A program made the position numbers and the translations under genes. Of a stretch of DNA of 64,000 nucleotides, positions 60,135 through 61,985 are shown piece after piece. Origin of the DNA: Cokeromyces recurvatus (taxonomy: Eukaryota > Mucoromycota > Mucoromycetes > Mucorales > Mucoraceae); the NCBI RefSeq assembly GCF_025118155.1, contig NW_026251401.1:372001-436000 (forward strand), read 5' to 3'. The notes under the pieces were generated by a model that saw only the letters and a program-made list of their open reading frames with translations, had not been told where the DNA came from and searched no databases. Every line of letters begins with the position of its first letter. Positions within the stretch are counted from its first letter, which is position 1.

Positions 60135-61985
60135 ATGAAGCTGTTATTAGGATCTTTATTTATATTAATGGTGATAGAGATATATCTGGCACCTTATACT
60201 AAAGTTGAAGAAAGTTTTAATTTACAAGCAACACATGACATTATACATCAAGTAGAACATTATGACCATTTAGATTTCCCTGGCGTCGTTCCACGTACAT
60301 TCCTCGGTGCATGTATTTTAAGTGCATTAAGTTGGCCATTAATTTACTTGTTTCCATCTATATCACTTCTTAATCAGCAGATTTTGGTACGTATCGTTCT
60401 TGCTGCTCTTGTCATAATTTCACTTGGAAAATTTACTTCTGGTGTCAAAGCACTTTTTGGATCAAGGACTGCTATCTGGACTCTCTTGCTTTTACATTGT
60501 CAGTTCCATTTTGTCTTTTGGTCTTCTCGTACTTTACCAAACACGTTAGCATTACCATGGACTTTGTTTGGGCTTTCTCATTGGATATCAAGTTTATCTC
60601 AAATGAGTGGTCGTGAAGATCATTTAAGATGGATGATTCGATATCTTACCTTTACTGGTATTGTATTTAGATTCGAAGTTGGTATTTTACTAGTTATTTT
60701 GTTAGGAATAGAACGGTTTTTATACCGTACAATTGATTTATATACAATTTTGAAGGAGACAATGACGACTGCATTCATCAGTTTATTAGTAACTATCCCA
60801 TTGGATTCCTTTTTCTGGAATACTTGGTGGTTATGGCCTGAGGGTATGGTATTTTATTTTAATGCTATTCTTAATAAGAGTTCAGAATGGGGTACTTTAC
60901 CATTTTACGCTTATTTTACTTCCTTTCTACCACGTTTATTGCTTGTATCTTATCCTTTGGCATGGATTGCCTTTGCTACCGATCGTCGTTCACGTCGTCT
61001 ACTTTTGCCTATGATTATTTATATTGTTCTGTTTTCATGCTTACCGCATAAAGAATGGCGTTTTATCATGTATACTATTCCTGTCTTCACTGCAGCTGCT
61101 GCCTCTTGTGTTTCAACTGTCATTACAACTACTCGTCGATCAACTACTCGAATAGTTGTGTCCTTCAGTATTATTATTGCTGCTGTAATTGCTTCGTTCA
61201 TGATAGCCATCATGATGTTTCAAATATCTCGTCTCAATTATCCTGGTGGACAAGCTCTTGCATCCTTGCATTCCATTGAAAATCATACATCCTCCTATGT
61301 TCATGTTCATATCGATACTGATACAGCCATGACAGGTGCCTCCCTTTATGGACAGTCGAATCCAAATTGGATTTACTCAAAGAATGAAAGTCATGAAACA
61401 GAAGATGATTTCCTTGAAGCACGTTACACTCATCTTATTACAGCTCATCCTGACAACTTGAATACGTCCCTCTTTGAAGTGATCGACATCAGTTATGGAC
61501 TTGATAACGTACGACTTAAACACATGAATGAATATATGAAATCAATTTTAAAAAACTATGACTTTATGCCTATTGAATTTAACATGTCACCAAAATTATA
61601 TACACTTCGTTTGATTCAACCACAAAGAGCTTGGATTCAATATACATTACGCAAATACCCCTTTGTACTCTATAGCAAAACTTACTGGTATTATGAAAAT
61701 AATAATAATAGTTATGTATAAGTGACTTATTTATGATATGATATGATTGTTTATAGTCCATATTCTATAGCAGCTAAGCAATTACTTTCCAAGTATTGTA
61801 AAGATATACATATTGTTGAGGCAAATCTTGATCAAGATAGTAAAGGAATTAAATATGCATTATTTGAATTGACAGGTCAACGAACATTTCCCAATTTCTT
61901 CAAGAACGGTCAAAGTCTGGGTGGTTATGATCAACTATCCGTATTAGACAGAGAAGGGAAGCTGTCGACTATCTGTAATGTGTAA
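60135..61985 (+). CDS. ALG12: ALG12 alpha-1,6-mannosyltransferase fused to a CPYS glutaredoxin
   Basis: Two exons, 60135-61687 and 61757-61985; 593 aa. Residues 1-495 are a full ALG12 (GT22, GT-C fold): PYTKVEESFNLQATHD, DHLDFPGVVPRTFLG, PHKEWRFIMYTIPVF and many membrane helices to about 364. ALG12 adds the eighth mannose to the dolichol-linked N-glycan precursor on the luminal side of the ER. A 69-base intron (GTATTA ... TTTATAG) splits codon 518; joined, TG+T gives Cys and the site YSKTYCPYS. Residues about 498-590 are a glutaredoxin: AAKQLLSKY, FELTGQRTFPNFF, GGYDQLSVLDREGKL. Unspliced mRNA stops after ALG12 at 61721 (528 aa). The downstream frame alone would read SPYS, without the Cys and first strand, so fusion is strongly favoured over two genes. 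Confidence 0.9.

Follow-up and report, generated by a model that had tools for sequence, protein, structure and literature searches.

Does a mannosyltransferase of the endoplasmic reticulum (ER) end, in the fungus Cokeromyces recurvatus of the order Mucorales, in a glutaredoxin of the same chain, and what would such a domain do there? The question is raised by a gene on the forward strand of a 64,000-nucleotide stretch (the window) that covers positions 372001-436000 of contig NW_026251401.1, in a genome of 28.05 Mb and 64 contigs; coordinates below are those of the window unless the contig is named. The original prediction described this gene as ALG12 fused to a glutaredoxin whose catalytic Cys is created by splicing. 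The fusion and its reading frame were found, and they are conserved. Our favored explanation, to which we give a probability of roughly 60%, is that this is one gene in which a complete ER ALG12 runs into a class I glutaredoxin, and that ALG12 anchors a luminal thiol oxidoreductase acting in trans.

Exon 1 (60135..61687, +) encodes the complete ALG12 (residues 1-495) together with the glutaredoxin's helix 1 and strand 1, and its last bases are the TG of the catalytic Cys codon. A 69-nucleotide phase-2 intron (61688..61756, +; GTATTA...TTTATAG) splits this codon between TG and T, and exon 2 (61757..61985, +) carries the remaining glutaredoxin, with CPYS, TFPN and GGYD, and the stop codon. The glutaredoxin domain (residues 496-593; 61620..61985, +) thus has the intron inside it. 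The open reading frame (ORF), donor, acceptor and frame were as predicted, except that the donor, which had been called consensus, has the GT but falls short of the fullest consensus. The spliced product of 593 residues is identical to the NCBI model for this species (P0001), which supports the splice-created Cys codon and the CPYS that results from it.

Both domains are recognized in the product, PF03901 over residues 9-402 (133.8 bits, cut-off 23.8) and PF00462 over residues 511-570 (44.1 bits, cut-off 22.9). In the predicted structure chicken ALG12 (9s6t_A) matches residues 1..495 and glutaredoxins match residues 496-593, where helix 496-507 and strand 510-514 form glutaredoxin helix 1 and strand 1; the fused domain is accordingly predicted to have a glutaredoxin fold. 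The joint two-domain model is confident, with a predicted local distance difference test (pLDDT) score of 93.8 and a predicted template modeling (pTM) score of 0.90, and the first part resembles ALG12 more than it resembles ALG9 or other GT-C enzymes. A luminal tail had been deduced from four sequons (N383, N417, N443 and N483). These do exist, but they say little about topology because their aligned positions are mostly poorly kept (occupied in 1/33, 24/37, 4/33 and 1/37 fusions, respectively); we instead place the C-terminal tail on the luminal side by comparing the ALG12 part with its homologue 9s6t, the ER being the probable location.

How widespread is the fusion? Searching with the fusion gave 2121 matches, and among the best 120, to which all counts out of 120 refer, 38 contained PF03901 and PF00462 together; fusions may also occur outside this set. 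A domain-only search retrieved seven proteins from 20 candidates, every one a fusion from Mucorales genera (for several genera we assume membership of this order). Motifs were counted in 37 fusions from about 30 genera, chosen by an active-site motif that required the first Cys; P0035, whose model reads through the intron, was excluded. T561, P563, G573, G574 and D576 are conserved in all 37. The catalytic Cys is likewise present in 37/37, though the selection motif demanded it, and the second active-site Cys in 35, with Ser in its place only in Cokeromyces and Benjaminiella (CPYS). The cis-Pro motif is TFP in 34 fusions and TVP in the other three. The active-site Cys, the cis-Pro and the GG-D glutathione motif, all present in the Cokeromyces protein, presumably have their usual roles. 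The term "monothiol glutaredoxin" therefore suits Cokeromyces itself but not the family, and CPYS is most simply read as a derived state of the Cokeromyces-Benjaminiella line.

The fused domains also carry an additional Cys pair, 14 residues past the catalytic Cys and near the C-terminus (C532 and C591). Both are present in 34/37 fusions and neither in two, which are Rhizopus rows; P0008, whose end looks cut short, has only the first. As a stand-alone reference we took the best 120 of 6753 matches, of which 109 could be parsed: none has a counterpart of C532 and one has the tail Cys. Among the 11 rows unfit for the motif search, P0126, P0127 and P0218 look like second exons of fusions. Since the two Cys co-occur across the fusions, their pattern suggests an extra structural disulfide, which would suit the oxidizing ER lumen.

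In a tree of the ALG12 part (33 rows), 22 Mucorales and Umbelopsis rows form a single clade (support 98/94). A single fusion event in an ancestor shared by Mucorales and Umbelopsidales is the most likely history, and we infer a single origin of the glutaredoxin part as well.

We propose that the luminal C-terminus of ALG12 continues with almost no linker into the class I glutaredoxin, and that the ALG12 part keeps its predicted activity, the usual alpha-1,6-mannosyltransferase job on the dolichol-linked glycan. It would double as a membrane anchor, holding a glutathione-dependent oxidoreductase in the ER lumen near glycoprotein synthesis. There the active-site Cys, usually in a dithiol CPYC site and in the Cokeromyces-Benjaminiella line in a monothiol CPYS site, may attack glutathione mixed disulfides of client proteins or small thiols in trans. 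An oxidoreductase next to an ER glycan enzyme has a precedent: according to a passage of PMC7835635, Htm1 works with Pdi1. A coupling of redox state to glycosylation, which had been suggested for this locus, is a hypothesis.

Several observations weigh against this explanation. In the tree of glutaredoxin domains (93 columns, 62 rows) the 24 fused rows do not form one clade, the domains of Phycomyces and Spinellus being placed outside the remaining fusions; fused rows were monophyletic in 10% of 200 bootstrap trees, and monophyly was not rejected by the approximately unbiased test (p-AU 0.211). The fused domain misses the equivalog cut-off of NCBIfam GRX_euk (TIGR02180; 63.4 versus 87.25 bits), and we do not present it as one of that model's equivalogs. 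Rhizopus microsporus P0032 ends nine residues past the ALG12 strand, with no fused domain, and in Cunninghamella P0072 and P0076 the fused glutaredoxin has neither the catalytic Cys nor GG-D (by eye, the additional Cys pair is kept in P0076 and both of its Cys are gone in P0072). Such lineage-specific loss or decay means that the domain can be dispensed with in places. Sporodiniella P0050 has no glutaredoxin domain either, but its model looks incomplete. The fusion is also not the sole candidate luminal glutaredoxin of this genome, because a separate type II anchored protein exists (P0134 at locus L032; 201 residues, a hydrophobic stretch at the N-terminus, CPYS; contig C10, ~109.5-110.6 kb, minus strand). 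Finally, C122 of the ALG12 part, in a loop of the predicted model, is found in 17 of the 19 fusions that have a residue there, and its commonness may leave a partner in cis conceivable.

If the domain was acquired by chance and tolerated, it would at most stabilize the luminal domain, its chemistry unused. We consider such a passenger unlikely, given that T-x-P and GG-D persist in every aligned fusion, and the second Cys in nearly all, across these genera. Also improbable, to a somewhat greater degree, is a redox switch in cis, in which the glutaredoxin would sense reduced and oxidized glutathione and alter ALG12, so that redox would decide the C-branch alpha-1,6 mannose and hence the glycan seen by ER-associated degradation (ERAD). 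The near absence of a linker, the confident joint model and the frequency of C122 speak for it, as does the requirement of the ALG12-added mannose for the glycan signal read in ERAD (stated in part of PMC7835635). It would, however, be removed by the domain loss in R. microsporus or the Cys loss in Cunninghamella, and the Cys of the ALG12 part are not special to fusions: C122 is present also in 17/30 other rows, C302 in 15/37 fusions and C325 in 5/37. Cys columns were reported if at least 12 fusions, or the Cokeromyces protein, have Cys there, and the N-terminal part is missing from many deposited fusions; within this alignment no Cys of the ALG12 part was both conserved and special to fusions, and for this reason we favor action in trans over control in cis.

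The position of the intron allows a further proposal. In 26/120 relatives the deposited protein enters the junction as SK(S/T)YW, and 21 of these 26 end exactly at the W. This is how a phase-2 intron between TG and T with a GTAA donor reads when unspliced; introns in relatives were deduced from such protein models, the DNA itself having been seen in Cokeromyces only. They include Mucor lusitanicus P0019 (NCBI), Apophysomyces P0039 and Syncephalastrum P0035, and further ones with tails that look Lichtheimia- or Umbelopsis-like by eye. Wherever an unspliced reading was seen, in these 26 proteins and in two Cokeromyces copies of the gene (see below), the intron lies inside the catalytic Cys codon. 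The split codon might then be an old splicing switch, in which retention sets the share of ALG12 with a redox domain and links the redox demand of the ER to the assembly of lipid-linked glycans, and 21 of the 26 unspliced readings would indeed leave a complete ALG12 without glutaredoxin. We regard this as very doubtful; the immediate stop is by itself no evidence of regulation, because a GTAA donor gives one in every phase-2 intron. By eye, five stand-alone CPYC or CPYS glutaredoxin genes (L002, L003, L008, L014 and L016) also seem to have an intron near the active-site codons, at differing positions, and that of P0134 lies within the Pro codon adjoining the active-site Cys.

That the locus holds two genes or a gene-model error, with ALG12 stopping at 61721 and exon 2 an independent glutaredoxin, can be dismissed almost entirely: the unspliced Cokeromyces frame is open for 10 residues beyond the W up to that stop (tail ...SKTYWYYENNNNSYV), and 21/120 proteins, M. 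lusitanicus P0019 among them, end exactly at the junction, but exon 2 by itself (ORF 61737-61985) has neither strand 1 nor a catalytic Cys, the end of exon 1 encodes helix 1 and strand 1, and both domains occur together in the 38 proteins above and in the second copy, so that a separate glutaredoxin with its own Cys-containing exon, one of the cases named in advance as refuting the fusion, is very improbable. An assembly artefact is not supported, as the same fusion is found in many deposited genomes.

The second copy lies on the same contig at 603214-605064 (-), inverted and ~170 kb away (L017), with the same anatomy. The duplicated segment is gene-sized (59978..61992, +; inverted copy at contig 603.2-605.2 kb), reaching from 157 bp upstream of the ATG through 7 bp past the stop at 98.6% identity, and no similarity was found beyond it in the roughly 10-kb flanks compared. 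The copy has kept the intron, with a 6-bp in-frame insertion, which rules out a processed gene. The copies differ in 15 codons, eight of them residue-changing; three of the 15 lie in the glutaredoxin part, where the sole residue change is the last residue. With the fusion as query, the ALG12 part matched only the two copies in the genome, three other PF03901 places remaining unmatched; the fusion is the only ALG12 form found in this genome. Among the stand-alone glutaredoxins, in hand-made models, there are four with CPYC, others with CGFS, and P0134.

The gene has ordinary neighbors and is flanked downstream by a PEX11 exon (62371-62700, +) and upstream, on the opposite strand, by a SUMO-like exon (58078-58329, -). 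Further upstream, at 50310-56854 (-), none of three long stop-to-stop ORFs, of 466, 762 and 426 codons, matches Pfam, and the 4-kb bin starting at 52000 has a G+C content of 0.35, versus 0.30 window-wide. A transfer RNA scan found none.

The original prediction knew of no description of this fusion. We found none in the full-text literature, preprints and most subscription papers lying outside that scope, but database annotation already displays both Pfam domains; as far as we have seen, the architecture is machine-recorded and undescribed. The main text of PMC4765768, on fungal glutaredoxins including those of Rhizopus oryzae, does not contain the word mannosyltransferase, and the accessible portion of PMC4961843, a survey with a sequenced Cokeromyces strain, mentions neither glutaredoxin nor mannosyltransferase. 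The assembly of lipid-linked oligosaccharides and the thiol chemistry of the ER are for the most part treated as separate subjects, and the fusion hints at an unexpected link between the two. A fungal group that has had an ALG12-borne glutaredoxin since early in its history, with examples that are dithiol, monothiol, apparently inactive or lost, is a natural experiment that bears on the function of luminal glutaredoxins and on the coupling of redox to N-glycan assembly. The fusion also flags gene models that end at the junction.

How does the fusion compare with known systems? In yeast, the secretory pathway has the glutaredoxins Grx6 and Grx7, for which a role in counteracting oxidation is proposed (a section of PMC6584808), and the active site of their group is defined as C(P/S)(Y/H)S (a section of PMC4765768). 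Cokeromyces matches this definition, but only 2/37 fusions do overall, and we do not file the family as Grx6/Grx7. Shared with Grx6/Grx7-type proteins, including fungal type II CPYS proteins such as P0134, are TFPN, the Cokeromyces CPYS and the inferred compartment; unlike the fused domain, which sits after the C-terminus of ALG12, these have their own N-terminal helix as anchor and no additional Cys pair. The kinship to Grx6/Grx7 that had been implied is in doubt: P0134, itself Grx6/7-like, is a separate gene of this genome, and a joint clade of fused and type II anchored Grx6/7-like domains was marginally rejected (p-AU 0.0375, same alignment). An origin from that lineage is favored by TFPN and by P0134, which of five paralogues compared is the closest to the fused domain (40/85 identical), and opposed by this test. 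The glutaredoxin tree leans to the classical dithiol glutaredoxins (86/83, a branch that is not firm). From these class I proteins (yeast Grx1/2, human Grx2 2fls, plant GrxC) the fusion differs as part of a membrane mannosyltransferase and by its additional Cys pair, unseen among the 109 parsed stand-alone relatives. The 18 unfused proteins aligned as ALG12 (Dol-P-Man:Man7GlcNAc2-PP-Dol alpha-1,6-mannosyltransferase, GT22; 9s6t) end 1-15 residues after the ALG12 strand, whereas the fusion has about 100 more, which form the glutaredoxin. A few animal proteins among those listed have other long tails, such as P0097 (1000 residues). Ost3/Ost6 of oligosaccharyltransferase also place a thiol oxidoreductase beside an ER N-glycan enzyme. 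They and Htm1-Pdi1 resemble the fusion in this way of working only; there the oxidoreductase, of the thioredoxin or protein disulfide isomerase type, is a separate subunit or partner, whereas here it is a glutaredoxin, in one chain with its enzyme, at the lipid-linked stage.
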